Positions 38,624-62,857 of a stretch of DNA of 64,000 bases are shown here, in pieces. The notes beneath the pieces were generated by a model. It saw only the letters and a list, made by a program, of their open reading frames with translations. It did not search any database and was not told where the DNA came from. The stretch's first letter is position 1, and each line of letters opens with the position of its first letter. The DNA lies in NCBI GenBank assembly GCA_019426215.1, contig CM033396.1, positions 25,807,101-25,871,100 on the forward strand. Reading direction: 5' to 3'. Made by a program: the position numbers and the translations under genes. The DNA comes from Buddleja alternifolia (lineage: Eukaryota > Streptophyta > Magnoliopsida > Lamiales > Scrophulariaceae).

Positions 38624-41559
38624 TGTTAGAAACTTTCTTGTTAGATGTTTTGATGTTGACAATTAGGATTCTATGTTAGACCCCAAAACATGTAAGTTTG
38701 ATTTTGCTAGAAATCATGTATAGGCTTTGAGCGTTAGATTTGTACTAGGCTTTATTTATTTTCATTGTAGTCTGTTAGGCTAAGTGACACGCATAGACCT
38801 AACGTGCTTTTTGTAGCAAGTATACTAGACGTGTTGTAATAAAAGTGGACAAAATAAGTTCGGGTTGTCGAACCACAGAGACTTGGATTTTAGTTAACGA
38901 TTTGATAAAAAGAAAACAACTAAAGTAAAGAGCAAGCAAAAGATTTAAACAAACGAATAGCAATAGAGAAATGACTTAGGAATTGAATCTCACGTATGAT
39001 AAAAATGACTAAGGCACATGCTTCAACCGTTTTTACTCATTAATACATATGATTAATCCTTAGAATTATTAGACTCCTATTGCTTTGGTGGAAAAATCCT
39101 TAGATAATTATTACCCGATGTCTCGGCTCATAATAATCCTATGATTAATTGACAGTTCTCTAGATAGGTCTATCCGAGAATATAACCAATAACCACGCAT
39201 TCACTTTCTAGAATTTTCCCGGATAAATCCGACTAACAACACCCGAGAATCTCTACCTATCTCTAGGGGCAATTCCTCATTTGTTACGGATGATGTGTTG
39301 ATTCTTTTGAACCCTAACCTATGTTCTTTCGAATGAATAGACTAGCACAATAGCAAGCATATGGTGATTAAGCATATGATTGGAATAAAAGCACAAAATC
39401 AACACACAAAGCAATAGGAGAATTAACACGAAGAAATCAATTCATAATTATCAACTTGTAAATTCGGCCTTCACATGGCCTTAGTTTAGCAAATTTAGCT
39501 CATGATAATCATAAAAAGAAAAACTAAGCATATACTTCATATTCATAAACAAAAAAAAATAATCTAAGCTAAAACAACTCCCTATGCTTGACAATGGTGG
39601 ATCCTTGAGTTGAGCTTCAATATCCAAGTAATCTCCCTCCTTGCTTTCAACCAAGTGATGAAAATATGGCCCACAACCCAGAAAAATGGCTTCCAATCAC
39701 CCTGGTTTCGAACCCCTCAAATGTGCTAAAAAATCCCTTTAATACATTTGAAAAATGGTTATCGCGGCGCCTATGCGCGGGTGGATTGGCACCTTGGCGC
39801 CGCCTACGTGGCAAGGGTGTTTTGGGAGATAAGTCAAGGGGCGCCCAGGTGAGGCTAAATCAGCGCTGGGGCGTGGGACTGCGAACTCGATTGGTTGTCT
39901 TCTCTAGGCTCGCGCCTAGGCACGAGTAAAATGGCGCCTAGGCGCCGTTCTTTGAATGTCACTATTTGGATTACTTGAACCGGCGCCTGAACGTGGCTGA
40001 GTTGGCGCCTTGGCGCAGGAGTGTGAAGTTAAAATTTTGAGTTCGTTTAATGCGTCGTCTTTTACCCTTTTCTTCGTGCACCGTCGCTTAGTGATTAAAA
40101 TCCCTTTAACGCACCTATTAAACGTACAAGTGGCACAAGTTAAGCTATAAATGAACCTAAATCGTCAATAAAAAACATGTGCAAAAATGACTTTTATCAC
40201 TAAGTAATCTTAGACTGAGCGTCTGATAATTTCTGAGTGAGCTTATCAGTAGTTAAGTTTGAAGATTCAAGCGTCTGAAGAGAGAATGAAGATGAAGTTT
40301 TCCAAGCGTCTAAGCATTGTATAGGACCAGGATCATTCAGTGATTGAATTAGTGTCTATCAAGGACAAACATTCACCCGAATTTATTCCTAAGTCCAGAA
40401 GGAGTTTAATGCAAATATTCTCAGATCATTAATTGCCAACGGGCATTTAATTCAAATGCATTAAATGATGATAAGAGAATTAAATGTGATAAGCACTCCA
40501 GGACGTACGGAGAAGCCACCCTATTGGACTGTCAACTATTCAAAGACTGCATCACCAACTTTTGTGCAACAGATTTTCAGGAAAAAGGACAAAAGTTGTT
40601 CACTCGCAGAAGTGAGAGACACGCACCTGTGCATGTGTCAAACAGACACTTCTTCCAAGAATGCCTATAAATAGGACTTCAACAAGCCAAAAAAAATACC
40701 GAATTACAAGCCAAATTGTTGTTGCATTGAAGTCTCAAGTACACTAACTCTCAGAAAAGCCAGAATATTTAAGCAAACATTCTCTTTGCTTTTCTTCAAT
40801 TCATGAGACAGTCAACCAATATCTCAAATCTCTTCAGAGAAGAACAGTACATTACTATTGAGATATTTCAAGTTGTTAGAACTTTTCCAAAATCAAACAA
40901 ACCATTAGAAAAACCCCTATCCAAGCCTCGCGATCTGTGTGAAGTCAAAGTTGGATACATGCAATATTTCTGGGTGAAAGAAGCAAGGGGATAGAAGTGT
41001 GTTGGAGCAGAAATCTTTGTGACCAAAGAGCTCAAGTCATCAATATCCATGTCTCCCTAATTTGTAGAAGATTCTGTGTCATTCTTTGAGAATCATTTTA
41101 GTGGATTGCCTCCGAGTATTCGAGGAGAAGAAGGACGTACTTGGGATTAGTCCACCCAGTGAACCTTTAAATTCTTTGTGTTCTTTACTTTACCGTTATT
41201 TCTATCTTGTCATTAATCGGTTAAGTTAACACATTCGTTAAATCATTTAAAAGCTAAGCAACTAATGAAAATTTTGTGACACTAAAAACATTGAAAAAGG
41301 AGGACTTAAAATTATTCCGCTGTGCTAACCTTGATCAAAGAACTAAACGCTTAACCTACTCGGTTATAGTATTCAAATCTTGAGTCTAAATTAATCTTGT
41401 CAAACAGTCTTCAAGTAGACGCTTAGCCAAGCGCCTACATTTTCAATCGTCCAACCAAACTTTAAAACGAAACTTTTTGAAGACGAAAAAGACTTCAGGT
41501 CTATTCAACCCCCTCCCCCCTCCCTTCTAGATCCTTTTGTATGCCACTTGCGACCAACA
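38624..41559 (+). mobile_element. SIRE-type 3' LTR interrupted by an Athila solo LTR
   Basis: Starts TGTTAGAAAC after the polypurine tract and ends ...TGCGACCAACA at 41559. Without the nested solo LTR and its duplicated 5 bp it is about 1.5 kb. The last 60 bp (TATTCAACCCCC, CTTCTAGATCC) are the inverse of the LTR start at 63023. The following AGGATGATGACCC belongs to the leader of copia element A, as shown by the matching sequence at about 55911 in element C. Confidence 0.82.
38785..40199 (-). mobile_element. Athila-type solo LTR in the SIRE LTR
   Basis: 1415 bp, TGACACG...TTTATCA, with a perfect 5-bp duplication CTAAG (38780-38784 and 40200-40204). It has the same ends as the LTRs at 31511 and 57984. 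GC-rich palindromic segments (GGCGCCTAGGCGCC-type near 39935, GGCGCCTATGCGCGG near 39765) lie at about 39760-40010. No internal sequence, so an LTR-LTR recombination product. Confidence 0.9.
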
Positions 41560-43288
41560 AGGATGATGACCCAGAATAATTCAAATTAAGGCCAATTGGA
41601 AAATTAGTCAATTTTGATTTATTAATTAGTTTGGGCTTAATTTAATTAATTCCAAATGGGCCAATGGGTTGGTGATTTGGATTTAAATTAAAACTTGCCC
41701 AATAGAAATTAATAATGCGTGCACGTTTTTCTAATTAATTAATTTTGGGCCCAATTAAATTAAATCCAAGTGGACCAAAAGGATGGTGACTTATGTTTGA
41801 TGAAATCGAACCTAATAAGATTAATTGGAATAAAATATTTAATTAGAATAATTAATTATTTTTCATGGAGATTAATAATTAATTTATGGATTAAATATTA
41901 TTAATTTTTCCTCAGCTTGGAAATTACTTAAATATTTGAATAAGGAATATAAATTATTTTTCTTGGATGATTAATAATTAATTCTTTAATCAAACAAAAG
42001 TTTCTCCAATTGATAAGAAAATTGAATTCCATATTTCATGTATTCATTTTAGGAGGACTAATATTATTTTAATTAAAGGTAGATATACTTAATTTATAAG
42101 TTTGTATATCTAAGTCATCTAGTAGGACTAGAATGATTTTAATTGAAATAAAGAATATATAAAAGTTGAGAATTTTATAAATGACTTTTTAGTTGGACTA
42201 AAATTTTAAATAATCAACATAAGTGTATAGCGAGTATGTATTAAATGTTGCGAGCATGTATTAATAGATGAGCATGTCTTATGTGATGGAGACACTGATC
42301 ACGGACTTAGGTTTTATTCGATTTACCTTTTACTTTTATGGGTTGTAAAGCCAAATTTGAGGCTATTTTCTGCTTTCTTAGAAATAATATATAAGTTGAT
42401 TTAAAGTATTGTAATAGAATAGTTCAAAATTGGTGGAGACAAGAAGCCCATGAAGATTAGATAGGTTTTCGTTTTTACCTTTTTGTGATGGCCCATTGGC
42501 TCGGTCCCTCTAGTAAAAGTCCATGATCAGGTGTGGTGGATTAATTAATTTATTTATTTAATTCCATGAATATTTATATTGATAGGCATGATTATTAGTA
42601 GTATATATTATGCAAGTTCAATATATGTTAATTGCGCTATATAAATTGATTAATGTGCAAATTGAGACCAAACATTTAACAATTTAAATTCTCCCAAATA
42701 AATAATACCGAGTTAGTAAAGGATGTGTGACATCCTCGCCCTCCACTAAACGTATTAAAATTAAAATTACTACAAATATGTAATGCTTCCCAGTTATGAG
42801 GGTTATGCATTTGGAAATAATTTGAAATTTTATTAAGTGCATGAAATGTCTTAATCAAAGCATATTTCACCCCAGAAATCGGTTAGGTTGCAAGGTGAAA
42901 TTCAAATGTTAGATTAAAGGAGTTAGTAGGAATGAATTCGTGTAGTTCACAATCTTAGAAATCGGTTAGGTTGCGGCTTGGTGAACTATGGGGAAAGGTA
43001 TTGAAACATTTATTGGATAAATTGATGTTAGACATCACTTTAAACAATTAACGGGCCAGAAATCGGTTAGGTTGCAACCCATCTAATTAATTGAGGACCT
43101 CAATACCCGCTGTGGAATCGATGCCAATGATGATTCCCGATTTTCACATGGGAGTGTGAGATTCGAAAAATGCAGTGGGAGCCAAGATAAATTTTAAGTC
43201 CTGAATTTTTCTTGGTTAAGTCAAATACAAGTAATCTAATTAATTTGGTTTATTTTTGCAATTGTTTTCTCATTTATCTCTCTCAAAT
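41560..43288 (+). other. 5' leader of copia element A
   Basis: Non-coding, AT-rich, related to 55911-57278 of element C (AGGATGATGACCC, CAATGGGTTGGTGATTT, TTCACCCC, GAAAAATG-AGTGGGAGCCAAG). Its 5' part and 5' LTR are missing because the SIRE LTR abuts at 41559. It carries three hairpins with a repeated loop motif and a fourth small hairpin just before gag (separate entries). Confidence 0.8.
42865..43159 (+). promoter_or_regulatory. Leader hairpin set of element A
   Basis: Hairpin 1: TTTCACC (42865-42871) pairs with GGTGAAA (42894-42900). Hairpin 2: TAGTTCAC (42943-42950) with GTGAACTA (42981-42988). Hairpin 3: CAATTAA (43045-43051) plus GGG (43053-43055) with CCC (43078-43080) plus TTAATTG (43087-43093). 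Each loop contains AGAAATCGGTTAGGTTGC. Hairpin 4: TCACA, loop TGGGAG, TGTGA (43144-43159). The stems are unrelated to each other; the loops are identical. Confidence 0.8.
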
Positions 43289-45084
43289 ATGACAAACCCA
43301 CTTTCAATTCTACTCGAAAAGAATACCCTTACTGAACTCAATTATGTGGACTGTCTTAGAAATTTGAGGATTGTCCTCAATATGGAATCTCTGGGATATA
43401 TCTTGGAGGCTGATATCCCAACGGCAAGGACGACGTCCGAGTGAGAGGATACATGCTGGGATCTATGACCAATGAACTTCAAAGGTCACATGATAAGATG
43501 CCCACTGCAAGAATTATCCTAGCTCACCTGGTAGAGCTCTATGCTGAGCATAGTCGAACTGCACGATATGAGATATCAAAAGAGCTCTTTTGAGCCAAGA
43601 TGAAAGAAAGTAAGAAGGTTGGTGATCATGTCCTTAAAATGATATCGAGGATTGAGAAATTAGAAGCTCTTGACTTCGCCATGAACGCCACCCTTCAAAC
43701 TGACTTAATCTAGAAGTCTCTTCCTGATTCCTTCTCCCAATTTGTGGTTAACTTTAACTGCAATGACATAGAGTGCAATTTAGCTGGGCTAATGACCAAG
43801 TTGGTTACTGCACAATCTCAAATAAAACCAAAGGGAAAGGAAACTATCTTGGTCATCTCTTCTAGACCTAAAAAATCTAAGTCTAAGAAGAAGAACAACA
43901 AGAAGCAGGCTAGCGAGCTAGGAGCAAAAGGGGGAGTTCAAAAGGGTAAGGGAAAGGCTCAAGGGTTTGATAAGAGCAAAGGGCCTAAGAAAAAGAATAG
44001 ATGTCTCGAGTGCGGTGAGCTTGGCCACTGGAAGAAGAACTATCCTAAATTAGGCAAAGGCGCAAAAGGTATGGAACTCTTTGTTTTTGAAACTAATTGT
44101 TCTATGACCATTTTTTCTACTTCATGGATTCTGGACTCTGGAGCAAGTGCCCATGTATGTTGGTTGGATTAGGATCTGCAGAGAAGTCGAAAGCTGGGCC
44201 GAGAAGAAGTGATGATCAAAGTAGGCAGCGGGGAAAGCGTCGCGGCTACTAGGATTGGATTTATTTCTTTGATTTTGAATACTGGACATTTATTGTTTTT
44301 AAATGACGTTTTAATTTTTTTCAAGGGGCTTAAGAACATTGATTCCATTCCTATATTAGTTAAGATTGGTTATACATTCCGTTTTTCTAAATCGAATTGC
44401 GACATTTTTTATTGAAATTAAATAGTTGGCAATGCATCTTTAGTTAATGGTTTATATTATTTAAATGTCCTTAATTCATCTGATGTGAATGTTGTAACTC
44501 AAAACGTGGTAGGCAAGAAGATAACTTAAGACTCAAGTGGCATCTTAGACTAGGCCATGCTGGAGACCACAAGATCCACAAAATGGAAAAAGATGGGCTT
44601 TTAAGCTCACTACGGTTGGATCCCTATCCAACATGTGAATGATGTCTCTTAGGCAAGATGGCTAGATCTCCCTTCACCGAGACTTTTGGAAGAGCATCTG
44701 AAGTCTTAGGATTAGTGCATACCGACGTTTGTGGACTATTTAGAGAAATGGCTCGTGGAGGTTTCTACTACTTCATCACTTTCACAGACGATCATTCAAG
44801 ATATGGTCTAGTGTATCTGATGAAGCAAAAGTTTGAATCCTTTGAAGGGTTTAAAGAATTCAAAGCTTTGGTAGAGAATCAAACTTAGCAAAATATAAAA
44901 ACTTTACGATCAGATCGTGGAGGAGAATATATATGAGCGCCGAGTTTGATAAATTCCTTAGAGAACAAGGAATAATGTTACAACTAACACTACCAGCGAC
45001 TCTTTAACTAAATGAAGTAGCCAAGCGTAGGAACCGAACACTGTAGCCTAGTGCTCCTTACTGCTGCTTATATATTGAACAAAT
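43289..45084 (+). pseudogene. Copia element A gag-protease-integrase, truncated
   Basis: ATG at 43289 begins MTNPLSILLEKN, as in element C. Gag (NYVDCLRNLRIVLNME, VGDHVLKMISRIE) runs with stops to a zinc knuckle CLECGELGHWKKNYP near 44002-44046; the last Cys is Tyr, so one zinc ligand is lost. Protease WILDSGASAHVC is near 44126-44161. The pre-integrase region is badly broken. The integrase N-terminal part (VHTDVCGLF, YYFITFTDDHSRYG) is at 44658-44888. After ALLTAAYILN the sequence jumps at 45084 straight to the LTR start; the rest of integrase, RT, RNase H and the polypurine tract are deleted. Confidence 0.88.
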
Positions 45085-45524
45085 TGTTAGTGTTATGCCC
45101 TCAAAGTCCATAAGAGGATAGAATTATCGGGCATTGAATTGTAACTAAACATTCTTATATTAATAAAAGGCATTTCATGTTGTTTCTTGTAGGCACTATG
45201 GGTTAGGGAGAATGGCACTAGAAGTGTTTGATCCTTAGTATCTAAATTGGTTCGCAAGTCAAAGAGAGTATTGACTGGACATCGTTACTGGATAGAGACT
45301 TGTATGATATAAGTATTGACAGGGAAGTGCCAGTCGAACACTATGAGTATGCTAGTGGGAACTTATGTCATAGACACATCAATTAGACTGATGAGTTCGA
45401 ACACGGCTTGCATCAATTATGTTACATGGGTTTTCACTCAATGACAGTCAATGACAAAACTGATAAGTTGTGATAGGTACGCATGAACCTTAGACCTGAG
45501 TAATCACGTTGAAGATGTGTTTGT
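45085..45524 (+). mobile_element. Shared copia A/C LTR, left part
   Basis: TGTTAGTGTTATGCCCTCAA starts the LTR, matching the 3' LTR start of element C at 62858. It is interrupted after 45524 by element B and resumes at about 54385. It serves both as the 3' LTR of A and the 5' LTR of C; total about 1577 bp. Confidence 0.85.
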
Positions 45525-47150
45525 TGTTAGGAATCCCGTACAGTAAAAATAAAGAATTGCAACGGAAGATTTGATGATTTTTCATAGCTTTCGTTGAAAT
45601 TTTGAACGAATAAACATACCCTTTTGATTCGTTTATTGATTCTGTAGAACAGCAATCCTCCAAGGGCTCCTGTCTCTAAAGCTTCACGCGAAACGAGCCT
45701 TCCAAAGATCCCAAAACTCCTCATTTTCTTGCAAGAGTGGACGGCTAGAGAGGAGAGAGGGGAGAGAGTTCTTTTCTTTTATGTTATGTAATTAGCTTGT
45801 TACTTCTCTCTTGGGTTTGTTCCATGTAGGAGTCTTTTTAAACTCAACTAGCTTGTGGAACAAGTTGGAGGCTACTCCAAACCCTAGAGTGGCCTCTCCC
45901 CTTAGGGCTTCCATGGACTGGGTGGGCTTTTAATTGGCTTGTCTAATTTCTAGCCCACCTGTACATATTTAATTTAAATCTAATTTAAATATAATAAATA
46001 CAATTAATTAATTCCAATTAATTAATATACTAATTAAATAATTTAATTTAATCTAATTAAATTAACTATTTAATTAATTGATTTAATCTAATTAAATCAA
46101 CCAGTCCATTTAATTCTTTCTAAAAGATTTACACAAAAGATACATCCCGTTCGTTTCTTATAGCGCGACTCTTTAGGTTCGTCTCAATTGGCAAAGAGAG
46201 GAATTACCTAAGAATGTGAGCGTCACCTAGCCAGACCCATGGACTCACATCGTAACCCAATTGAGTACAAAATGAATGAATCATTTTACGAACCTCTTGA
46301 CCATAAATACCGTATGAGTATAAGCCCTTCACTGACGTATCCCGATCAAGTGAGAGTCATGGAAAATGTCAAACTCACTAAATTTGATACTGTGCATTAG
46401 ATTATAGCATAATGAAATTACTAAACTACCCTCAATGTCCCACATGAGTTAGTTGTTTATGCTTTGGCCAAAGACTTATAATTTCATTAGCCTATAATTG
46501 CACAGGATACTTTCTCGTTTACTATAGAGACAGTGAATCCTATCTTGGCGATCACTGATCAACTGCTACTTGTCTCATCGATATCGCACTTCGAGGTCGA
46601 CCCCACCGACAGGTGATATGGGCCTAACTACTCTGGTAACAAATCCAATAATACAAGCACATTGATCATGAACCCTCAGGTCTAAGGCTCACGCATACTA
46701 TTATGATTAGTAATCCAATCATTGACAGTCACCGAGTAAATACCCATGTGATGGGATTACTACGAGCCATGTTCAAATATGTCAATTCCATTGACATATC
46801 TATGATACCTGCTCCCACTATCACTATAGTGTTCGACTGGCACTCATCGACAGAGCATGTGTCATACAAGTCAAATCTTAATGCCCAATCAAGATTCTTT
46901 GACTTGCGAACCCTTTTAAGTGATAAAGTGTAAGACTCTTCCCATGCCATGTCTTTATTCCATAAAGGGCAAAGAGTCAAACCTTTATTCACATGGACTA
47001 TATGTTTAATACTTATTTAGATGCCGTAAAGATTTATATGAATAAAATATAAATGCTTTTATTAATTTCTTCTCAATAGTTTGTACAACATAATAAGATA
47101 CCCTAATCTAACTATTTGTCCTCATTTGCATCTAGGGCATATACCTAACA
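45525..47150 (-). repeat. 3' LTR of copia element B
   Basis: 1626 bp; plus strand TGTTAGGAATCC...ATACCTAACA. It lacks about 35 bp near its left end (the CTACCGGTAGATC region) present in the other LTR. Next to its right end, 47151-47165 read on the minus strand is GTGCAAGTGGAAGAT, the polypurine tract. Confidence 0.9.
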
Positions 47151-50106
47151 ATCTTCCACTTGCACTTAATGCTAATCGCTTTGGTATCTTATACCCATCT
47201 TCTCAAGATATTGCTCTAGCACCGCCTGCACTAATGGCTTAGTGAGTGGGTCAGCTACGTTATCAGCTAAGGGTATTTTCTGCACGGCGATGTCGCCTCT
47301 TCCAACGATTTCTCGAATTATGTGATATCTCCTCTCTATGTGTTTGGATTTATTGTGAGACCTTGGTTCCTTTGTTGCGCGATGGCTCCGTTGTTGTCAC
47401 ACCATAGTGGCAATGGAAGATCCATGCTAGGAACAACTTGAAGTTCAGTAATGAACTTCTTTATCCAAACAGCCTCCTTGGCCGCCTCCGAGGCTGCCAC
47501 ATATTCAGCTTCGGTGGTCGAATCGGCAGTTGTGCTTTGCTTGGAACTTTTCCAAGACACTGCTCCACCGTTTAAAGTGAATATGAACCCTGAAGTGAAT
47601 TTTCGGTCATCGATGTCAGATTGGAAATCTGAATCAGTATAACCATCCACTTTCATTTCTCCATTGCCATATGTGAGGATCATATATTTAGTTCTTCTCA
47701 AGTACTTTAAGATTGATTTCACAGCCATCCAATGGTCTTTGCCTGGGTTAGCTTGAAACCTACTTACTACGTTCATAGCGTATGCAAGATCTAGTCTCAT
47801 GCATAACATAGCGTACATGAGACTTCGCACTGCTGATTCATAGGGGATGGTATTCATTTCTCTTCGATCTTCCTCACTTTGAGGATTCATCTTTTTGGAG
47901 AGATGAATTCCATGTCTCATGGGCAAAAGACCTCTTTTAGAATTTTCCATCCCAAATCGCTTCAGGACCTTTTCTAAGTAGAGGGCTTGGGAGAGACCTA
48001 TTGTCTTATTCGATCTATCCCTGTAGATTCGAATTCCTAGGACATAGGTGGTTTCTCCTAAGGTTTTCATGGAGAATGTGCTTGAAAGCCATGTCTTAAC
48101 CAAAGTTAGCAAACCTGTATCATTCCTTATAAGTAGAATGTCGTCCACGTATAGTACCAGGAATGATATCTTGCTCCCACTGACCTTTTTATAGACACAT
48201 GGTTCATCCTCGTTCTTGATAAAGCCGTTGTTTCGTACTTCTTCATCAAAATGAAGGTTCCAACTACGAGAGGCCTGCTTCAGTCCATAAATATTTAACT
48301 TGCAGAATTTATGAGAATTGGTAGTGGATATGAAACCTTGGGCTGCTCCATATAGATATCCTCCTCGAGGAATCCATTTAGGAAGGCGGTTTTCACATCC
48401 ATCTGCCATAATTCATAATCCAGGTCTAGAATTCTAATGGATTTGATCATAGCTACTGGTGAAAAGGTTTCCTCATAGTCAATGCCCTCCTTCTGACTAT
48501 ACCCTTTCGCCACTAGCCTGGCCTTATAGGTATCCACCTTGCCATCCAGACCTATCTTTCTCTTATTGATCCATTTGCATCCAATAGGTACAATACCTTT
48601 AGGAGGATCTACTAGATTCCAGACTTGGTTCGAATACATCGAATCCATTTCCACTTTCATAGCTTCATGCCATTTCGCAGAACCCATATCCATCATTGCC
48701 TGGTCATAACTAGAGGGATCGTCTCCATGGTTTCTTTCTGCTACTGCATGCAAATTATGCTCTTCTTGTAGCAGAGAACCATATCTCGCAGGCGGTTGAG
48801 ATACACTAGTAGACCTGCGCACTGATGGTTGTGTCGTTTCTGGGTCGGGTTGGGTCTCTTGAACAGTGTCTTCCACAGAGGATTCATTTTGTTCTTGTAG
48901 AACAATACTTCTACCAGCTCCTCCTTCTCAAATGAATTCTTCTTCAAGAAAGATTGCCTGTAAGCTAACAATGATCCTTTGATCATCGGGAAGGTAGAAA
49001 AGGTATCCCATAGAATCCTCGGGACATCCAACGAATCGTCCTTTCATGGACCTAGCCTCTAATTTCTCTGCCTTGGTCTTTTTGACGTAAGCTGGGCAAC
49101 CCCATATTCTTATGTTTCAGATTAGGCTTCCTTCCATGCCATATCTGATATGGTGTTCCAGGAACAGATTTGGAGGGACATCTATTCAAAATATGAGTAG
49201 CTGTAAGTAGCGCGTGTCCCCAAAGTGAAATGGGCAAATATGTGTAGCTGAGCATGGATCGAACCATGTCCAACAGTGTTCGATTCCTTCGTTCTGCTAA
49301 GCCATTCAATTGTGGAGTTGTTGGAGGAGTAAGCTGTAATAGTATGCCATGTTCTCGAAGGAATTGGTCAAACTTTGCACACGTATATTCGCCACCGCGG
49401 TCAGACCGAAGTGTCTTTATATGATGCTCGGTTTGCTTTTCGACTAAAGTCTTGAATTCAATGAATTTCTCCAATGATTTAGACTTGTACTTCATTAAAT
49501 ACACGTAGCCATACCTAGAATGGTCATCGGTAAATGTGATGAAGTACTGAAAACCACCGCGGGCCATTTTTCCAAATGGTCCGCACACATCAGTATGAAC
49601 TAGACCTAAGACTTCTGTGGCTCTTTCAAAATTCCCTATGAAGGGGGCTTAGTCATTTTGCCTTAGATACAAGACTCACAAGTGGGATAGGCATCTGATC
49701 CCAATGAGTCTATGACTCTACCCTTTTCGAACTCATGTAGTGTTTGGTCCCCGACATGACCTAGTCTTAAGTGCCACAGTTGTCTCAAGTTTGTACCATG
49801 CATTCTGCATTTTCTTGTTACAGCGTTAACATTACAATCATTTTGGACATTAATATAATATAAACCATTTATTAAAGACGCATTGCCAACACATTCATTT
49901 CTAAAATAAATGTCACAAGAATTGTTCAAAAAGGAAAATAAATAACCTTTCCTGACTAAAACAGGAATTGAAACAATATTCTTAAGCCCGTTGGGCAAAA
50001 CAAGGCAATTGTCTAAATATAATAAATGTCCAGATGATAAACTAAGGGAAGTGGTGCCAATGTGTGAGGCTGCTACTCTATGACCGCGGCCAACACTGAT
50101 CATCAC
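47151..50106 (-). pseudogene. Copia element B pol (integrase, RT, RNase H)
   Basis: Minus strand. The pre-integrase region (50106-49663) has LRQLWHLRLGHVGDQTLHEFEKG and YPTCESC. Integrase (49588-49052): FTDDHSRYGYVYL, LRSDRGGEYTCAKF, TTPQLNGLAERRNRTLLDMVRSM, i.e. the D and E of the D,D35E core. RT: GCKWINKRKIG, RLVAKGYSQKEGIDYEETFSPVAMIKSIRI, then a small deletion before DYELWQMDVKTAFLNG, a frameshift near 48350, and the active site LYVDDILLI. RNase H: KSSKQSTTADSTTEAEYVAASEAAKEAVWIKKF and LWCDNNGAIA. The C-terminal DPL region lies between 47340 and 47160. Several frameshifts; not functional. Confidence 0.92.
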
Positions 50107-51033
50107 TTCACCATGCTCCAGTTTCTTACTTCTTTCCAGCTCCTAATTCATCACACATATGTGAGCACTAGCCCCAGAGTCTAGAATCCAGGAAGTTGAA
50201 AATATGGTAACAGAACAATTTGTTTCTAAAACATTAAGTTCTATACCTGAAGTAATTTCTGCATTTAGCATGGGACAGTCACGTTTCCAGTGCCCCATCT
50301 CATGGCAATGAAGACATGTGTCTGTCTTCTTTGGACCCTTTTTCTTAAACTTCTAAGTCTTTGTGATTTTGGGTTCTCTGATTTTGCCAGCTAGTTTAGT
50401 ATTAGTTGAAATAACAGGAAACTTGAATGCACCCCAACTCTCTTTCATTCGTTGTTGTGCAGTCATCAGCTTGCTCATAAGTGTCGAGAGTGATCCTTCA
50501 ATGTCATCCATGTCAAAATTGATGATGAAATCCAAGAATGATCTAGGTAATGGTTGTAGAATGTGGTCCACCTGTAGGTGAAGGTCCATGTAGTAACCCA
50601 AAGACCTAAGCCTGTCTATCATGGAGATCATCTTCAAAACATGATCTTTAACATCCTCATTCTCTTACATTTTTATGTTGAAGAGCTCTTTGGATACATA
50701 GTATCTGACGGACTTTCCGTGTTCCCCGAATAGCTCCTCCAAGTGCAGCATTATGGATTTGGGACTATCCATGTTTTCATTCGTGCGTTGTAACTCGCCA
50801 CATATGGAGCTCAACATATAATCTCTTACTTTACGAGCATCAGAGACCCAATTTGAGTATGCTAGTTTGACTGAATCATCCTCGTTGACCCCAGGCCTCG
50901 GTGGTCGATCTAGTTCCAGCATGTACTCGATATTTTCATCATTGAGGACTATCCTTAGACCTCTGTTCCAATTAGAGAAATTATAGCCGTTCAAAACGTT
51001 CTTTTCAAGCAAAACTTTGAGTGGGTTAACCAT
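50107..51033 (-). pseudogene. Copia element B gag and protease
   Basis: ATG at 51033 (MVNPLKVLLEKNVLNG), capsid region RGLRIVLNDENIEYMLEL, a stop near 50665, then KMISMIDRLRSLGYYMD. The zinc knuckle CLHCHEMGHWKRDC (50275-50320) is complete. Protease WILDSGASAHIC (50158-50200) has the catalytic D-S-G. The start agrees with elements A and C, whose gags begin with a similar NPL-LLEKN phrase about 100 nt after the GTGGGAGCC motif. Confidence 0.88.
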
Positions 51034-52704
51034 TTTGAGAGAGATAAAATTACTGCAAAAAATTAACCAAGATTCAATTAGATAATTATGTTGTACCCAA
51101 TTAAAAATTAGGACTTTAATTTTTTATTTGGCTCCCACTACATTTTTCGAACCATTGCACTCCCACTGCAATGAACGAAAATCTCGTTGGAAAGATTTCA
51201 TAGTGAGTGATTGAGTTCTTAAAAAATTTCAATGAGTTGCAATCTGTAACGATGTATGGCTCATTGGAACTTTTGAAGTGACATGCCATGTCAAGCAGTC
51301 TTACTGATGATTCAATCTGCCTTTGGCTCATGGATCACTCAACCTCAGCCTGTAACGAAATATTGGTGGTGATCCATCTAAGTACTTTCCCATCAACTCC
51401 TATCGATCTAACAGTTGAATCTTATCTTGCAACCTGTAACGGTGATATGGGATAAGATTTGCTTCGACCGATGGCATCCAATGCACTTGAAGAGATATGG
51501 ATTATGAATTAATGCATAACCCCCATTAGTCGGGACGACGCCATGCATAACTCATAATCCCATATTTTCCAAGTTTGATGGAGAGCCAGGATATCCAATA
51601 TACCTTACTTACTTAGTATTTAAAGTGGGAAAATTTTTGAAGGTCTCACTTTGCACATTAATTTGTTACGCGCATATATGAATTATAATCATGCATGCAT
51701 AGAAAAAACCAAGTTATTCTAACAACATGCATTTCCATGGACATTCTAGATTGATCTAAGCCAATAGATCAATCAGGGGAATAGGGGTCTATTATCAATC
51801 TAATTTCTAATAGATCTTCGAGCTCCAAGCTAGAAAAGGTCCTACCTCTATTTTACACAACTCAGAAAGCACCCTATATATTATATTACCATAATTAAAA
51901 GCACAAACTGGGGAGCAATTGCCCAATACAACCCAGATAATACCAAAGCGGTAAAACCCTAAGTTTATGGAAGCATCCACCACAACATACATCAAGCATG
52001 TAAGTAAACTATTTAAGTTTATGTTGGTTTTAAGTTTAAAATCGAAAAGAAATTCAAAAACCGATTAAATCTAATTTAATTAGAAGGGATGAATTTTGAT
52101 TTCAATTTTAAAGGGAAATAAATCCAATTTATTATTTAGGAAATAAGTCAAACCTATTCCTTTTTTATTTTGGAAAAATATAATCAACCTTAAATAAATC
52201 CTATTTATTTAGTCGTCGCAAATCATAAATAAAAATCTAATTTAATTTATGATATTATTAAATCCAATTTAATATTAAAGTCAAATCCAATTTAATTTTA
52301 AGAAAAACATTTTTAGGGAAAAAGAGTTTTGACAAATCACGGGTCGAATTTGTCTATTAGGGTCAAACCCTAATATTTATTCATTTATATATATATTTAG
52401 GCCCAGCGCACGGCTAGGGCGGCGTTTTCGCCACCACCCTACTTTTTCCTTTTTTTTTGTTTTTCTTTGATTACACGAATGGGGTGTTGCTCGCGTGTGC
52501 TTCAAAAACACATGGTGATGCCACCCCGATTTGCCGTTGCCAACGATGAAAAACATGTAATCATGCGATGATTTCAAGGCAATAAATATTTTCAAAATTT
52601 CAGATTTAACATCGAATATTAAATACATAAAATCAAATTTTATAAAAATCCATTTTTAACCAACATAATCTTAAACGCAAAAAATCATCAGATTCGTTTA
52701 AGTC
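51034..52704 (-). other. 5' leader of copia element B
   Basis: Non-coding, between primer-binding site and gag. Minus-strand features: a GC-rich hairpin at 52418-52435 (7-bp stem with AAAA loop), a long imperfect hairpin around 51500-51565 (GGATTATGAGTTATGCAT against its near complement), three hairpins with a shared loop motif (51230-51459) and a small hairpin beside gag (51154-51172). Confidence 0.8.
51154..51459 (-). promoter_or_regulatory. Leader hairpin set of element B
   Basis: Plus-strand coordinates; the RNA is minus. Hairpin near gag: CAATGAG (51230-51236) with CTCATTG (51260-51266). Middle: ATGGATCAC (51330-51338) with GTGATCCAT (51369-51377). Distal: AATCTTATC (51418-51426) with GATAAGATT (51451-51459). 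All three stems are perfect and unrelated in sequence. On the minus strand each loop contains CGTTACAG followed by a TTGC- or CTG-type end (ATCGTTACAGATTGCAA, CCGTTACAGGTTGCAA). A fourth hairpin is ATTGCA (51154-51159), loop, TGCAAT (51167-51172), with RNA-sense loop GTGGGAG. Confidence 0.85.
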
Positions 52705-52718
52705 GGCTCTGATATCAC
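52705..52718 (-). promoter_or_regulatory. Primer-binding site of element B (initiator tRNA-Met)
   Basis: Minus strand GTGATATCAGAGCC, one mismatch from the TGGTATCAGAGCC site used by most plant copia elements, immediately inside the 5' LTR. Confidence 0.85.
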
Positions 52719-54379
52719 TGTTAGGAATCCTATACAGTAAATACAGAGATTTGCAGTGGTAGATTCGAGGATTCCTACCGGTAGATCAAAAAAATAGATC
52801 TGATGATTTTTCATGGGTTTCGCGAAATTTTGAACGAATAAACATACCCTTTTGATTCGTTTATTGATTCTGTAGAACAGCAATGCTCCAAGGGCTCCTG
52901 TCTCTAAAGCTTCACGCGAAACGAGCCTTCCAAAGATCCCGAAACTCCTCATTTTCTTGCAAGAGTGGACGGCTAGAGAGGAGAGAGGGGAGAAAGTTCT
53001 TTTCTTTTGTGTTGTGTAATTAGCTTGTTACTTCTCTCTTAGGGTTTGTTCCATGTAGGAGTTTTTTTAAACTCAACTAGCTTGTGGAACAAGTTGGAGG
53101 CTGCTCCAAACCCTAGAGTGGCCGCCCCCCTTAGGGCTTCTATGGACTGGGTGGGCTTTTAATTGGCTTGTCTAATTTCTAGCCCACCTGTATATATTTA
53201 ATTTAAATCCAATTTAAATATAATATATACTATTAATTAATTCCAATTAAATAATATACTAATTAAATAATTTAATTTAATCTAATTAAATTAACTATTT
53301 AATTAATTTATTTAATCTAATTAAATCAATCAGTCCAATTAATTCTTTCTAAAAGATTTACACAAAAGATACATCCTGTTCGTTTCTTATAGCGCGACTC
53401 TTTAGGTTCGTCTCAATTGGCAAAGGGAGGAATTATCTAAGGATGTGTGTGTCACCTAGTCAGACCCATGGACTCATATCGTAACCCAATTGAGTACGAA
53501 ATGAATGAATCATTTTACGAACCTCTTGACCATAAATACCGTATGAGTATAAGCCCTTCACTGACGTATCCCGATCAAGTGACAGTCATGAAAAATGTCA
53601 AACTCACTAATCTTGATATTGTGCATTAGATTATAGCATAATGAAATTACTAAACTGCCCTCAATGTCCCACATGAGTTAGTTGTTTGTGCTTTGGCCAA
53701 AGACTTATAATTTCATTAGCCTATAATCGCACAGGATACTTTCTTGTTTACAATCGAGACAGTGAATCCCATCTTGGCGATCACTGATCAACTTCTACTT
53801 GTCTCATTGATATCGCACTTCGAGGTCGACCCCACCGATAAGTGATGTGGGCCTAACTACTCTGGTAACAGATCCAATAATACAAGAACATTGATCATGA
53901 ACCCTCAGGTCTAAGGCTCATGCATACTATTATGATCAGTAATCCAATCATTGACAGTCATCGAGTAAATACCCATGTGATGGGATTACTACGAGCCGTG
54001 TTCGAATATGTCAATTCCATTGACATATCTACGATACCTGCTCCCACTATCCCTATGGTGTTCGAATGGCACTCATCGACAGAGCATGTGTCATACAAGC
54101 CGAATCTTAATGCCCAATCAAGATTCTTTGACTTGCGAACCCTTTTAAGTGATAAGGTGTAAGACTCTTCCCATGCCACGTCTTTATTCCATAAAGTGCA
54201 AAGAGTCAAAGCTTTATTCACATGGACTATATGTTCAATACTTATTTAGATGCCGTAAAGATTGATATGAACAAAATATAAATGCTTTTATTAATTTCTT
54301 CTCAATAGTTTGTACAACATAATACGATACCCTAATCTAACTATTTGTCCTCATTGGCATCTAGGGCATATACCTAACT
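52719..54379 (-). repeat. 5' LTR of copia element B
   Basis: 1661 bp; plus strand TGTTAGGAATCC...TACCTAAC. The terminal CA is degraded (CT). It is closely similar to 45525-47150 apart from scattered substitutions and the 35-bp segment missing there. Confidence 0.9.
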
Positions 54380-54384
54380 CTTGT

Positions 54385-55521
54385 GACATCAAGTCCATCA
54401 TTAGAGTAGTTAGATCCAATTCAGCCGTTAGTGGGGTCAACCTCGAAGTGCGCTTGATGGGCAAGTAGCAATCTTAACTGATTAGCAAAATGGAATTGGT
54501 TATCTCATAAGTGAATGAGCTAAATATCCTATGCCGTCATGAATGAGTGAGGTCAAAGACTTTGGCTAAAACATTAGAGATACTCATGTTGGACATAAGA
54601 GTATTCTCTGTGACCTCGATTCATTATGAGCTAAGCATATGGTCAAGTCCTGTGAGTTTGACTAAACCATGATTCTCACTTGACTGGGATATAAGAATAA
54701 AGAGTTTATACTCGTACGGTAATCACAGCGTGAAAGGTTTGTAATGATTCTATTCATTCGTTCTCAATTGGTATACGATGCGGGCCACGAGACTGGCTAG
54801 GTGTTACCCACATCCTTTTGGTTTCGTCTCAATTACCTTTTGACGCGAACTTAAAGAGCTGCGCTTAAAGGAATTGCAAAGGAAAAATTATGGAATAAGA
54901 CTTGAGAGATTTTTCGGTATTTGATATCACAATTAACTAATTAATTTAAATCATTAGATGATCTTATTAATTAATTAAGTTAATGTGTTAATTAAATTCT
55001 TTATGAAATAAAATATAGAATTAACTTGGATTAATTAGTTATTTAAATAATTTATTGGATAAATAATATTAATTAAATAATTAATTCAATTAAAACTAAA
55101 TACATGGACTAAAGCCAGAGGGCTTAAAACGCCTAAGCGGGCGTCCAAACATGGACGCCTAGGCCTTAGTAAATTTAGGTTTAATTATTTCCTTGTGTAG
55201 TATAAATTCAACTAAGTGGAAATAATTAACCCTAGACTCATAATTGTCTTTATCTCCAAGTCATAGAATTCCACTTCTCTCTCTCTCTCTAGCCATCCAT
55301 GGGGAAAGGTAAAGAAGGATTTTTCGTTCTCAATTCTGGCGTGGTGATTTAGAGGCAGTGGCTATTTCGCTGCTTGGCAAAGGGATCAAAAGCTGGTTTA
55401 GAAGTTTCAATAATACAAAGAAAGGTACATGTTCTTTAACATGATTTGAATACATAAAATTGGAGGTGAACCACCGTGGGATTTAAATTTTTCACTGCGT
55501 TTTATATGTAAAAACCCAACA
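54385..55521 (+). mobile_element. Shared copia A/C LTR, right part
   Basis: Continuation of the LTR begun at 45085, ending AACCCAACA at 55521. It contains a segment with GACGCCTAGGCC and GGGCGTCC near 55137-55170, and a (CT)n-rich stretch near 55274. Directly followed by the primer-binding site of element C. Confidence 0.85.
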
Positions 55522-55522
55522 G

Positions 55523-55536
55523 TGGTATCAGAGCCC
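55523..55536 (+). promoter_or_regulatory. Primer-binding site of element C (initiator tRNA-Met)
   Basis: TGGTATCAGAGCCC, one base after the LTR end. A perfect match to the standard plant copia site. Confidence 0.92.
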
Positions 55537-57278
55537 ATCTCTGATTTCTGTGTTTAGTTAAATACGTGATTTTATGTGTTTTTGAAGCATGATGAATATG
55601 ACGATGAATTTATGATTTAGAGCCATGATCTTTTTGCATTTTTCTTGGATATTATTGCATGATAATATGGTGAATCGATAAGAGTCAAAAAGGGTGAAAA
55701 AACGGAGCCCGAAGGCTCCGTGTATGTGCGTAGCTGCATGTGCAGCAGCACGCACGGCCGACCCGCTGTGCGCCACCGGGTGACCAGCAGGTCACCCGAT
55801 GGCAGGCGCAACGCACGGCTAGTGACCTGTCGGGCCGTTCGCGTGGCCCATGGGGTCTAATTTTTTGATAAAAGGATTTTGGGCTATTTTAATTATCCGG
55901 GCGGGTCAAAAGGATGATGACCCGAGTTTTAATTAAATAAGCCCAAATTGATTTAATTAAAAGATTAGACATTCAATATATTAGTTTTGGGCTAAACTCA
56001 TTAAATTTAAATAGGCCAATGGGTTGGTGATTTAAGTTTGATGAAATCGAGCCCAATTAGTTTTTATTGAATATTAACTATTTGAATAAAAGATTAATTA
56101 ATTATTCTTGGAGGATTTTAATTAATTTATCTTATTTAAATAATAAATTCTCACTAGAAGGTTTTTATTATAAATATGAATAAATTTTAGAATTTTATGA
56201 GAAAATTAATTAGTTGGACTAATTAATGGTAATCTTAATCACCAACATAATTGCTTTATTTATCGCAAGCATGTATTATATGATGGTGACATTATTCATG
56301 GGCTTAGGTTTTATTTTTTGGATGTATTTCTTTTAATGGGTTGTAAGGGCCGGATTTGATCCCATTATTTTATTCTTAGAATTATGTATAGGAGTTTATA
56401 ATTCTTATATAATAGATAGAATTAGAAGAGACCTTGAAGAAGGGGTCGATCCAAAAAGGAAAAGAGCTCGGAGCCCAAGAAGAATAGTTTAGTTTTTTCT
56501 TTTCTTTTGATTGACTTGGGCCCTCTCGAAAAAGCCCATGAATATATGTAATGTTTTAATAGCTTTTGATGCATGTTTCATTCGATGTATGTTGCAAGTA
56601 TTATCCTATCCTGCGCTATAAAAATTTGATAATGTGCAAAATGAGAAATGAATAAATGTTTAGAGCATAAATTCTCCCAAATCAAAAACAATACTAAGTT
56701 AGAAAGGGGCACGAGGTGTCCTGTTCCTCCACTAAGCTTAATGAGTTTAAGAATTGAATCAAATATATGACATCTTCCCAGTAAGTGGCGTTCATGTATT
56801 AAGACCCAATTCTGAAATTTCATAAAGTGCATTGGATGCCTTAATCGAGACATATTTCACCCCAAATATCGTTAAAGGCTTTGCAAGGTGAAATTCAAAT
56901 GTTAGATTAAATGGTGTTAGTGAGAATACACTTCGATAGTCCACAAACCTATATATCGTTAAAGGGTTGCAGTTTTGATGGATTATGAGAAAAGAAGATT
57001 GGACCGTCTATTGGATAGATTGCTGTTAGTGGACCAAATACCGTTAAAAGGTTGCCATCCACTATTCTGATTAAAGAAATCAATCTCCACTACGAAGTAA
57101 TAAACAACGATGACTTTCGATTTTCATAGTGGGAGTGTGAATCTCGAAAAATGTAGTGGGAGCCAAGTCATAAATCGAAGTCCTTGATTTTACTTAGTTA
57201 TAGTTTAAGTTACAATCATCTAATCAAGTCTGGTTTATTTTCTGCAGTTATTTATTGATTTATCTTTCTCAAACAAAA
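55537..57278 (+). other. 5' leader of copia element C
   Basis: Non-coding. It has a GC-rich section (about 55690-55850) with a perfect 9-bp hairpin CGGGTGACC-AGCA-GGTCACCCG (55777-55798), then AT-rich sequence colinear with the leader of element A from about 55911. Three repeated-loop hairpins and a small fourth hairpin precede gag (separate entry). Confidence 0.85.
56855..57141 (+). promoter_or_regulatory. Leader hairpin set of element C
   Basis: Hairpin 1: TTTCACC (56855-56861) with GGTGAAA (56887-56893). Hairpin 2: ATAGTCCA (56936-56943) with TGGATTAT (56979-56986), one G-T pair. Hairpin 3: TAGTGGA (57027-57033) with TCCACTA (57058-57064). Loops: ATATCGTTAAAGGCTTTGCA, ATATCGTTAAAGGGTTGCA, ATACCGTTAAAAGGTTGCC. 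Hairpin 4: TTCATA (57123-57128), loop GTGGGAG, TGTGAA (57136-57141), one G-T pair. Then CGAAAAATGTAGTGGGAGCC, about 120 nt before the gag ATG. Confidence 0.85.
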
Positions 57279-57983
57279 ATGACTATCAATCCACTTTCCA
57301 TTTTACTCGAAAAGAACATTCTTATCGGACCCAACTACGTGGACTGGCTAAGGAACTTGAGAATTGTTCTCAACATGGAGTCTTTGGGATATGTGTTGGA
57401 CACAGACTTCCCTGCTCCACCTGCCAGAACACGTTCCAATGAGGAAGAAGTCTAGGCTCATGACGAATGGGTAAGGGATGATGTCCGAGTGTGTGGGTAC
57501 ATGTTGGGCTCAATGACAAACAAGCTTCAAAGGTCCCACGAGAAAATGACCATTGCGAGGGCTATCTTGGCACACTTGGTCGAGCTCTATGGTGAGCATA
57601 GTCGCAGTGCTAGATATGAAATATCTAAGAAGCTCTTCGAAGCCAAAATGAGAGAGGGTGAAAAGGTTGGGGATCATGTCCTTAAGATGATCGTGAGGAT
57701 TGAGAGATTGGAGGCTCTCAATTTTACAATCACCCCACAAATTCAAACGGATCTCGTTTTGCAGTCTCTTCCTGATTCCTTTTTCGAATTTTTCATGAAC
57801 TTCAACTGTAACGAGATTGAATGCATCTTAGCTGGGCTACTGAACAAATTAACTGCTGCACAATCTCAATTGAAGCCCAAGGGAAAGGAAATTGCACTGG
57901 TTATCTCTTCTGAGCCCCAAAAGACTAAACATAAGAAGAAGAAAACCAATAAGTAGCATGGTGAGCTTGGGGCTCAGGGTGGT
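57279..57983 (+). pseudogene. Copia element C gag, interrupted by a solo LTR
   Basis: ATG at 57279 (MTINPLSILLEKN). One frame with a TAG at 57453 (probably CAG originally) and a TAG near 57954. Capsid-type regions: YVDWLRNLRIVLNMESLGYVL, YEISKKLFEAKMREGEKVGDHVLKM, LQSLPDSFFEFFMNFN. A Lys-rich linker (KTKHKKKKTNK) follows. An Athila solo LTR interrupts after 57983 and gag resumes at about 59605. Confidence 0.88.
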
Positions 57984-59604: not shown

Positions 59605-62600
59605 GTCGATAAGGGTAAAGGGAAAGTTCCTGTGATTCGCAAGCGTAATGGCCAAAGAAGATGGATATATGCCTACACTGCGGTGAGCTGGGCCACTGAA
59701 GAAGGAACTGTCTAAACATGGGCCCTGGCGCACAAGTTATGGAACTTTATGTTCATGAAACTTATTGTTCTATAACCGTTTTCTCCACATATTGGATTCT
59801 TGATCTGGTCTAGTGCTCACATTTGTTGCATGAATCAGGATCTAGTGCGAGGAAGGAAGCTGGACAGTGGTGAGCTGAAGATAAGAGCAGGCAGCGGGCA
59901 AAGCGTCATGGCTACTGGAATTGGATCTACCTCATTGCTTTTAAAATTCTGGACATTTACTATTTCTGGATAATATTTTGGTTATGCCCAATGGGCTTAA
60001 AATTATTGTTTCAATTCCCGTTTTAGTTAAGCATGGTTATACTTTCTGTTTTATAGACGAACATTGCAACATTTATTATGGTAATTAATTAGTAGGCTTT
60101 ACTTAATTACTGAATTGTTTGTACTACCTTAATGTCCTGAATGAGTGTGCTGTAAATACTATACAAAGGAAACGTGGAAGACAAGGAATTAACCAAAGAT
60201 TAATTTGGCATCTTAGACTAGGCCATGGCGGCGAGCACAAAATTCATAGAATGGAGAAAGATGGACTAATAGGTCCATTGGGATTGGATCCCTATCCTAC
60301 TTGTGAATCTTGTCTCAAGGGCAAAATGCCCAGATCTCCCTTCACAGGGACTTTTGAAAGAGCCTCACAAATCTTAGGTTTAGTGCATACTGATGTTTGT
60401 GGACCATTTGGAGAAATGGCTCGTGGAGGTTTCCTTTACTTCATCACATTCACAGATGACCATTCAAGATATGGTCTAGTGTACTTGATGAAGCATAAGT
60501 CTGAATCCATTGAAAGATTCAAAGAATTCAAGGCTTTAGTGGAAAATTAAACTGTGCAATATATAAAGGCTCTTCGATCTGACCGAGGAGGAGAATATAT
60601 GAGTGCGGAGTTTGATGAATACCTTAGAGAGAATGGTATAATATTACAACTCACACCTCCATCGACAAGACAGTTGAATGGAGTAACCGAGCGAAGGAAT
60701 TGAACTTTGTTGGACATCGTTCATTCCATGCTCAGCTACACTGACTTACCCATTTCACTGTGGGGTCACGTGCTCCTTACAGCTATACATATCTTAAATA
60801 GATGTCTGTCCAAGTCCGTTCCTAAGACCCCATACGAAATATGGAGAAATAATAAACCAAGTCTTAATCACATCAAGATTTGGGAATGTCATGCTTATGT
60901 CAAAACGACTAAAGTAGAGAAGTTGGAGGCTAGATCCTTAAAAGGGCGTTTCATTGGTTATCCTGAGGATTCCATGGGATGCCTCTTTTACCTGCATGAT
61001 GATCAAAAGGATCATTGTAGTTTTTCAAGCTCACTTTCTTGAAGATGAGTTCATTCAAGAAGGTGGAGCAGGTAGAAAAATTGTTCTTGAAGAACAAAAT
61101 GAAAATCCATTGGATACATCTACACAGGAAGTAAGAACCGAACCTTCTATAACACAACCACAACCGCAAAGATCAAATAAGATACCTCAACCACCTGAGA
61201 GGTATGGATATCTACTGCAAAGGGAGTTGAGCCTCCATTCAGTATTAGAGGAGGGTCATGGAGATGATCCCTCCACATATGATCAAGCGATGGCGGATGC
61301 GGATGCTGCGAGATGGCGTGAAGCTATGCAAACATAAATAGACTCGATGCATTCAAACCAAGTCTGGACACTCGTAGATCGTCCTGGTGGCATTATACTA
61401 ATTGGGTGTAAATGGATTTACAAGAGAAAGATTGGTGTTGATGGAAGGTTGACACCTATAAAGACAGGCTAGTGGCAAAAGGGTATAGTCAAAAGGAAGG
61501 AATTGACTACCAAGAAACCTTTTCGCCAGTAGCTATGATCAAGTCTATAAGAATTCTACTTGCAATAGCAGCTCACCTTGACTATGAGATATGTCAAATG
61601 GATGTCAAAACTGCTTTTCTGAATGGATTCCTAGAAGAAGATATCTATATGGAACAGCCCAAAGGTTTTGTATTCGAGGATGGTATCCATAAGTTGTGCA
61701 AGCTTGAAAAATCCATTTATGGGCTCAAGCAAGCATCTCGTAGCTGGAATCTACGGCTTGATGAGGTAGACAAAGGATTTGACTTCATCAAAAATGAAGA
61801 CGAGCCATGTGTTTATAAGAAGGTTAGTGGGAGCAAGATATCATTCCATGTCCTATATGTAGATGACATATTGCTTATAGGAAATGATATAGGAATGCTC
61901 ACCACTGTTAAGAAGTGGCTTTTGAGTACTTTCTCCATGAAAGACTTGGGAGAAGCTACTTACATTCTAGGGATTTGAATTTATAGAGATCGAACAAATA
62001 GAATGATAGGGCTCTCTCAAGCCCTTTACTTAGAAAAGGTCATGAAGAGATTTAGGATGGAGAATTCTAAGAAAGGGTTTCTGCCAATGAGGCACAGGGT
62101 CCATCTCTCAAAAAATTACGCGTCCTCAAAGTGAGGAAGATAGAAAAGAGACGAGCATTGTACCCTATGCATTTGTAGTGGGTAGCCTGATGTACATAAT
62201 GCTATGTACTAGACCTAACATTGCTTATGCAGTAAGTGTTGTTAGTAGCTTTCAAGCAAACCCAAGCAAGGAACATTGGATAGCTATGAAAAATATCCTA
62301 AAGTATCTGAAGAGAACTAAGGATATGATTCTCATCTATGGGAGTGGTGACCTAAGAATGGACGGTTACCCCGACTCAAATTTCCAATCAGATGTCGGTG
62401 ACCAAAAATCCACCTCGGGGTTCATATTCACCCTCAACGGTGAGGCGGTGACTTGGAAAAGTTCCAAGCAAAGCACAACCGCAGATTCCACCATAGAGGA
62501 TGAATACGTAGCTGCCTCTGAGGTAGCTAAAAACTAGTTTGGCTAAGGATGTTTCTTGGAGAACTTCAAGTGGTTCCAAGCTTGGAGCTCTCGTTGCCAC

Positions 62601-62842: not shown

Positions 62843-62857
62843 GTGCAAGTGGGAGAT
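62843..62857 (+). promoter_or_regulatory. Polypurine tract of element C
   Basis: GTGCAAGTGGGAGAT immediately before the LTR start TGTTAGTG. Compare GTGCAAGTGGAAGAT in element B. Confidence 0.8.

Follow-up and report, generated by a model that had tools for sequence, protein, structure and literature searches.

The window analysed here, 64,000 nucleotides (nt) of Buddleja alternifolia DNA (assembly GCA_019426215.1, contig CM033396.1, positions 25,807,101 to 25,871,100), carries three diverged and decayed Ty1/copia retrotransposons, designated A (plus strand), B (minus strand), and C (plus strand), and the final ~560 nt upstream of gag in these elements share a large conserved RNA structure. 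The consensus fold of the three leaders comprises 163 pairs in 20 helices, and the compensatory changes within it support a selected RNA structure. We tentatively propose that this part of the genomic RNA serves in encapsidation and dimerisation and that the Gag protein of the element itself binds to it. The first-pass annotation of the window had recognised three hairpins with a repeated loop in each leader; these hairpins are real, yet they are only part of the ~560-nt, 20-helix structure, so that its extent had been understated.

The consensus was derived from an alignment of positions 42700-43260 (A), 51640-51068 (B), and 56670-57240 (C), with pairwise identities of 0.65-0.71. Its energy was -119.5 kcal/mol, of which covariation contributed -10.5. 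From helix P1 to helix P19, the domain extends over 42708..43217 on the plus strand in A, 51095..51616 on the minus strand in B, and 56694..57199 on the plus strand in C; all features described below lie on the same strand as their element. P1 encloses P2 and P3, and P3 in turn encloses the long rod P4 (42750..42838 in A, 51485..51574 in B, and 56736..56828 in C), the small P5, and the first of the repeated-loop hairpins, H1, after which H2 follows. The rod consists of 37 pairs, 13 of which are changed on both sides. Below its inner stem, H1 has an outer stem, which reads TTAATC/GATTAA in A and C and TCGGTC/GATCGA in B. Helix P12 (TATTGA/TCAATA in A, GATTGA/TCAATC in B, and GATTGG/TCAATC in C) encloses P13 and H3. 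The closing helix P16 (43106..43179 in A, 51134..51207 in B, and 57086..57160 in C) surrounds P17 and a fourth hairpin, H4, and its 3' strand, GCAGTGGG in A, is part of a 23-nt word, TCGAAAAATGYAGTGGGAGCCAA, matched by all three elements. H4 itself (43138..43165 in A, 51148..51177 in B, and 57118..57146 in C) combines a near-constant loop, TGGGAG in A and GTGGGAG in B and C, with varying stems (CACA/TGTG, TGCA/TGCA, and CATA/TGTG). At the 3' end of the domain, P19 and P20 are followed by a pyrimidine-rich stretch and then by the gag ATG. Inspection by eye indicated a possible kissing contact of five pairs, present in all three elements, between the tip of P4 (UCCCA/UCCCG) and the loop of H4 (UGGGA). 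The rod of B (51486-51574, minus strand) also gave a sub-threshold Rfam match to the plant microRNA family MIR405 (23.4 bits against a cut-off of 102, E 0.15), which is probably due to chance or just to the presence of a long hairpin.

The placement of the hairpins between the primer-binding site (PBS) and gag, as originally suggested, was borne out for B and C, where the PBS lies at 52717-52706 and 55523-55534, respectively, and the domain begins about 1.1-1.2 kb downstream of it. In 100-column windows, the identity of B with A and C was 58-76% within the domain, compared with 45-57% at the start of gag; across the greater part of the 5' leader it was 25-61%.

All nine hairpins described earlier were found, each no more than a few bases away from the position given for it. 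In A, H1 with its outer stem occupies 42851..42917 (inner stem 42864-42901), H2 42941..42990, and H3 43045..43093; in B, H1 occupies 51403..51471 (inner stem 51459-51418), H2 51330..51377, and H3 51230..51266; in C, the respective positions are 56841..56910 (inner stem 56854-56894), 56936..56986, and 57027..57064. The stems had been described as complementary with at most one G-T pair or a bulge. This holds for A1 (ATTTCACC/GGTGAAAT), B1 (AATCTTATC/GATAAGATT), B2 (ATGGATCAC/GTGATCCAT), B3 (CAATGAG/CTCATTG), C1, which has the same stem as A1, as had been noted, C2 (ATAGTCCA/TGGATTAT, one G-T), and C3 (TAGTGGA/TCCACTA). However, A2 (TGTAGTTCAC/GTGAACTATG) contains two G-T pairs, and A3 is weaker than claimed: only three pairs, GGG/CCC, adjoin its loop, and a lopsided internal loop separates them from an outer CAATTAA/TTAATTG. 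The common loop motif is exact in all three hairpins of A but strongly altered in B2, and the start-to-start spacing was ~78-113 nt, against the ~60-110 bp reported initially.

The best stems around the nine motifs summed to 71.5, whereas shuffled flanks gave 45.9 ± 3.6 (maximum 60.5, n = 1000) and random placement in the same 801-nt stretches gave 49.0 ± 4.3 (maximum 69, n = 1000). Singly, the hairpins were only modestly unusual, being matched by 7 to 73 of 1000 shuffles and by 44 to 164 of 1000 random placements. A comparison of hairpin numbers with those of shuffled leaders, proposed with the first description, likewise revealed mildly raised counts (8 versus 3.6, 6 versus 2.7, and 6 versus 3.0), which were reached by 10, 17, and 29 of 300 shuffles, respectively. 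The strong evidence lies in the nine hairpins taken together and in the covariation, not in single hairpins. Elsewhere in the window, the loop motif showed no excess (36 matches versus 39 expected at up to three mismatches); the form found in A matched seven times versus 3.6 expected, and the only exact matches were its three known loops.

Changes on both sides with pairing kept were observed for 45 (fold output) or 46 (pair counter) of the 163 pairs, and 92.3% of the 483 cells of the consensus were paired. When the 3' letters were redealt, 17.6 ± 3.2 double changes were obtained, and the value of 46 was reached in none of 500 trials; when the partners were slid by one to three columns, 3-7 double changes remained. 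Because the consensus structure had been chosen on the same alignment, which makes these comparisons circular, refolded controls were also used. Locally shuffled and refolded alignments yielded 15.8 ± 3.5 double changes, with a maximum of 28 (n = 40). Three control alignments of pol from A, B, and C, one of them antisense, stayed near their shuffled values (20 versus 14.8 ± 2.8, 13 versus 10.9 ± 3.1, and, for the antisense one, 9 versus 13.7 ± 3.1). Further upstream in the leader (A 42090-42690, B 52250-51650, and C 56130-56665), covariation support was absent, with 19 double changes versus 16.4 ± 4.7; the energy of this 5' stretch, -29.3, was below that of the shuffles (-11.2 ± 3.0, minimum -22.1). 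In the same part of the leaders, patches of A and C at 41559-42386 and 55910-56384 can be aligned at 71-75% identity, and no match to B was reported.

A non-circular test was provided by projecting the fold of a single element on the other elements through the sequence alignment, with 500 null samples per comparison. The fold of C projected on B contained 34 doubly changed pairs, 25 of which still pair (null mean 8.5, maximum 17). With the fold of A on B, 21 of 33 such pairs were kept (9.1, maximum 19), and with that of B on C, 19 of 23 (8.8, maximum 17). The remaining comparisons gave 14 of 18 for C on A (null mean 6.7, maximum 17), 17 of 27 for B on A (9.8, maximum 22), and 9 of 14 for A on C (6.2, maximum 16). 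Thus, the null mean was exceeded in all six leader comparisons and the null maximum in three, while none of the twelve comparisons made with pol exceeded its null maximum; the z values of kept pairs were 1.7 to 4.7 for the leader and -0.9 to 2.2 for pol.

Over the whole domain, the sense strand folded better than the antisense strand (-119.5 versus -88.0), which fits an RNA of the sense strand. The antisense leader also showed an excess of double changes (37 versus 14.2), as is expected of a complement, and in the H1-H3 stretch alone the strands differed little (-41.2 versus -37.3, with z of -7.9 for sense and -8.7 for antisense). As single sequences, the domains of A, B, and C folded with z of -3.55, -3.90, and -1.99, the last being matched by 4 of 100 shuffles. 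Energy relative to column shuffles was rejected as a proof of structure, because stretches of pol, too, had lower energies than their shuffled versions; the counts of double changes and the single-fold test took its place. The earlier claim of a selected RNA structure in the leader was therefore upheld by compensatory changes in excess of both shuffles and pol controls, together with the better sense fold and the single-sequence values. For an alignment of three sequences, all of them decayed copies from one window, the evidence from covariation is strong.

The loops and the stems of the hairpins have different patterns of similarity. For 21-nt loop cores anchored on the CG of the motif, identity was 0.75 within an element versus 0.44 between loops at the same position of different elements, and the grouping by element was the highest among all 280 splits of the nine loops into triples, in agreement with the initial observation that the loops are most alike within an element. 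For hand-picked 8-nt 5' arms, the relation was reversed (0.29 within an element versus 0.49 by position). This contrast indicates that the loops of one element change together, whereas the descent of the stems follows their position in the leader. Such concerted loops would be awkward to explain by loops being copied without their stems; the simplest explanation is a single ligand that recognises all three. In a search that included two of the three loops of A (H1 and H2), a fixed antisense partner of the loops within the elements was rejected for now, as the best partners differ in place among A, B, and C.

The concerted loops favour the Gag protein of the element as this ligand and packaging or dimerisation as the role of the domain, and we infer both on that basis. 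According to this proposal, the final ~560 nt before gag would act as a conserved RNA domain of the full-length transcript, in which the three large loops of the same sequence, set on unrelated stems, would be bound by Gag from the same element or by the nucleocapsid portion of this protein. The remaining parts of the domain would be the rod P4 and H4, whose loop, (G)UGGGAG, is rich in G, and the palindrome UUGCAA, found in five of the nine loops (A1, A3, B1, B3, and C1), could initiate dimers. The single-ligand pattern, the structure itself, its location downstream of the PBS and upstream of gag in B and C, the constraint on the domain, and the report of such signals in BARE2, an element of a related kind (PMC3735527), all count for packaging, which we nevertheless regard as having slightly less than an even chance of being the true function.

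Several observations weigh against the packaging reading. The palindrome does not occur in the H2 loops (A2, B2, and C2) or in C3, and the loop of B2 deviates from the motif. The case is limited to three elements, all of them decayed copies in one window. Folding energy is non-discriminating: one pol alignment reached -99.5 versus -69.2 ± 6.0, below all 40 of its shuffles, and one pol stretch had a z of -5.9. Finally, translation control fits the same facts, and the leaders of B and C, with 41 and 48 ATGs, respectively, between the PBS and gag, would also need a way round scanning. Translation control and leader splicing both have to be taken seriously as alternatives to packaging.

Control of gag translation by the domain, through an internal ribosome entry site (IRES) or through a shunt as in cauliflower mosaic virus (CaMV), is the stronger of these rivals, although we consider it doubtful. 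With so many upstream ATGs, plain scanning is unlikely to get to gag, and the last of them precedes the gag ATG by 119 (A), 110 (B), and 128 nt (C); however, the counts of 41 and 48 are only somewhat above the 33.3 and 37.4 expected from composition. The large covarying structure immediately upstream of gag would suit this role, as would the pyrimidine-rich stretch before the gag ATG (pyrimidine fractions of 0.74, 0.63, and 0.57 over 35 nt), and the structured leader of CaMV combines shunting with packaging, according to a published account (PMC5902531). On the other hand, no Rfam family was matched at the cut-off and the weak hits were not to IRES families, although membership in a known family is not required of an IRES. 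A short upstream open reading frame (ORF) that ends close to P1, as a shunt would involve, was observed in B only (gaps of 20, 3, and 23 nt in A, B, and C), which speaks only weakly against a shunt.

It is rather unlikely, but deserves weighing, that the domain is part of an intron in the leader. Splicing from U5 to a site shortly upstream of gag would then remove the PBS, the upstream ATGs, and the structure, and only unspliced RNA would keep the latter; the retained structure would regulate the splice choice or mark the genome. The word ATCTAAT occurs in all three elements 23-26 nt before the end of TGCAG (B and C) or TGCAA (A), which in turn ends 19-31 nt upstream of the gag ATG. The acceptor-like TTTTYTGCAG ends 19 nt upstream of this ATG in B and 31 nt in C. 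Candidate 3' splice sites, each composed of the branch-point-like ATCTAAT and an acceptor-like sequence, were delimited at 51053..51083 in B (TTTTTTGCAG) and 57218..57247 in C (TTTTCTGCAG). GT donor-like words are present in U5 at 52847 (B) and 55425 (C), and the U content is 0.34 in the leader and 0.26-0.27 in gag. Splicing is reported in PMC3735527 for BARE, near the end of gag, and for Drosophila copia. However, A reads TGCAA and is without the acceptor AG, and its U5 was not located; donor-like words are common by chance, and B has a second one at 52778. Moreover, a leader intron alone does not account for a structured RNA, and it may well be true together with packaging.

A role of the structure in nuclear export, stability, or protection of the genomic RNA from silencing is improbable: the structured leader of CaMV recruits export factors, according to a review (PMC12786077), but such a role does not explain loops that are kept alike in each element. 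That there is no selected structure, and that the stems are due to chance, AT-rich sequence, or inherited repeats, is very improbable, since the mildly unusual single hairpins and stem counts, the modest fold of C alone, and the three of six single-fold comparisons within the null maximum are outweighed by the compensatory changes seen in circular and non-circular tests and by the pol and sliding controls, which already contradict it.

The domain was set beside several known systems. The retroviral psi region or 5' leader likewise has hairpins between the PBS and gag, a G-rich hairpin loop, and a palindromic loop; unlike in psi, the domain of B and C lies ~1.1-1.2 kb past the PBS, three hairpins have one long loop sequence, and the element family is another. 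BARE and BARE2 are also plant copia elements with an untranslated leader before gag, and PMC3735527, citing earlier work, mentions that BARE2 has conserved signals for dimerisation and packaging. The idea that a plant copia element has a packaging region is therefore already known. A published structure of that leader region was not found in the sources consulted, and BARE and BARE2 were compared with A, B, and C by description only. The leader of CaMV, a plant reverse-transcribing element, is similar in its length of ~500-600 nt, its high degree of structure, and its many upstream ORFs, and it contains a binding site for the coat protein (PMC5902531 and PMC12786077). It differs from the present domain in that it forms a single large stem-loop, upstream of the PBS, and in a short ORF that ends at the stem, which was seen here in B only. 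In the genomic RNA of the yeast long terminal repeat (LTR) retrotransposon Ty3, the 5' region is structured and acts in cis, and a palindrome at the tip of a hairpin serves as the dimer site (PMC11381356); repeated-loop hairpins were not seen in the passages of that description consulted.

At the gathering cut-off, Rfam 15 had no matches in the window, with weak sub-threshold hits only. Such a structure was not found described for a plant copia element in the open-access literature searched, including PMC2829016, PMC6317226, PMC10578108, and PMC12513839. The initial statement that no counterpart had been described was thus not contradicted by this literature or by Rfam 15, and what appears to be new is the structure, its design with repeated loops, and the concerted change of these loops. 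RT-based scans (RT, reverse transcriptase) of viral contigs found no relatives of the elements. A loop pattern matched nine loci in viral contigs, once each, while a leader pattern matched none in viral contigs and four loci in contigs of bacterial metagenome-assembled genomes. Judged by their number and hosts, these 13 matches were taken as chance.

The leader provides a tangible RNA domain that can be mapped and whose helices and loops can be mutated, in a kind of element that forms much of many plant genomes. If the Gag of each element does read a family-specific loop, this could explain how families are kept separate within one cell, and a loop code of this type could explain which defective copies others can mobilise. 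A broader conjecture, which we put forward as unlikely, is that the domain represents a new class of packaging domain: an RNA of ~560 nt that bears three copies of one 12-20-nt loop on unrelated stems, the loops co-evolving with Gag as a family-specific code, and that is located in a leader intron, so that splicing would sort gag mRNA from the packageable genome.

The window is AT-rich (G+C 0.37) and holds the remains of several retrotransposons. Element C contains a piece of a gag ORF (57489..57956) matching Pfam Retrotran_gag_2, the copia-type gag, and an ORF piece of RT (61472..61978) identified by Pfam RVT_2 and by its protein relatives. In B, the remains of pol (47336..49588) comprise the integrase (Pfam rve, 49052-49588) followed by RT (RVT_2, 48295-48876 and 47336-48409), which is the copia order. 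Element A was assigned by its DNA similarity to B and C, not by Pfam. A protein search with the RT of C gave E ≤ 0.001 for 7,982 of the 7,997 scored proteins. The named organisms among the matches listed were plants such as Punica, Ulmus, Prunus, Sesamum, Cucumis, and Mikania; three short contigs labelled Enterobacter or Escherichia, also among the matches listed, were taken as contamination. These matches point to a plant host, probably a eudicot. The presumed gag start codons are located at 43289..43291 (A), 51031..51033 (B), and 57279..57281 (C), and each gag is interrupted by a stop within its first 130 residues.

The LTRs of B (52796-54378 and 45567-47149) are 95.5% identical over 1584 positions. 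The approximate limits of the 5' LTR are 52719..54378, with the inner end placed by eye, and those of the 3' LTR are 45525..47149, with the 45525 end placed by eye. Primer-binding sites were located by sequence match at 52706..52717 in B (TGATATCAGAGC) and 55523..55534 in C (TGGTATCAGAGC), 1684 and 1756 nt from the respective gag ATG, and we take both to be of the tRNA-Met type, on the basis of a tRNA-Met word. The start of the LTR of B may resemble that of BARE, from the Angela/BARE lineage of copia. Within the window, neither a PBS nor an LTR pair was found for A, and no LTR pair was seen for C.

At the pol ends of A and C, a patch of 113 nt (45083-45195 and 62856-62968) has 95% identity, in contrast to 71-76% for the other matches between these elements, which suggests that the patch was exchanged recently or was inserted later into both elements from one source. 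Another repeat family has copies at 30450-31511, 38785-39849 (minus strand), and 57984-58802 (minus strand). The identity is 84% between 30690-31511 and 58802-57984 and 68% between 30450-31511 and 39849-38785. The copy at 57984-58802 sits within element C, between gag and the pol region, and a copia-type gag ORF (31473-32438) starts at the edge of the copy at 30450-31511. Other elements are represented at 28650-29408 and 25102-25836 by Transposase_32, a putative plant transposon protein, and by a retroviral-type RT with ribonuclease H.

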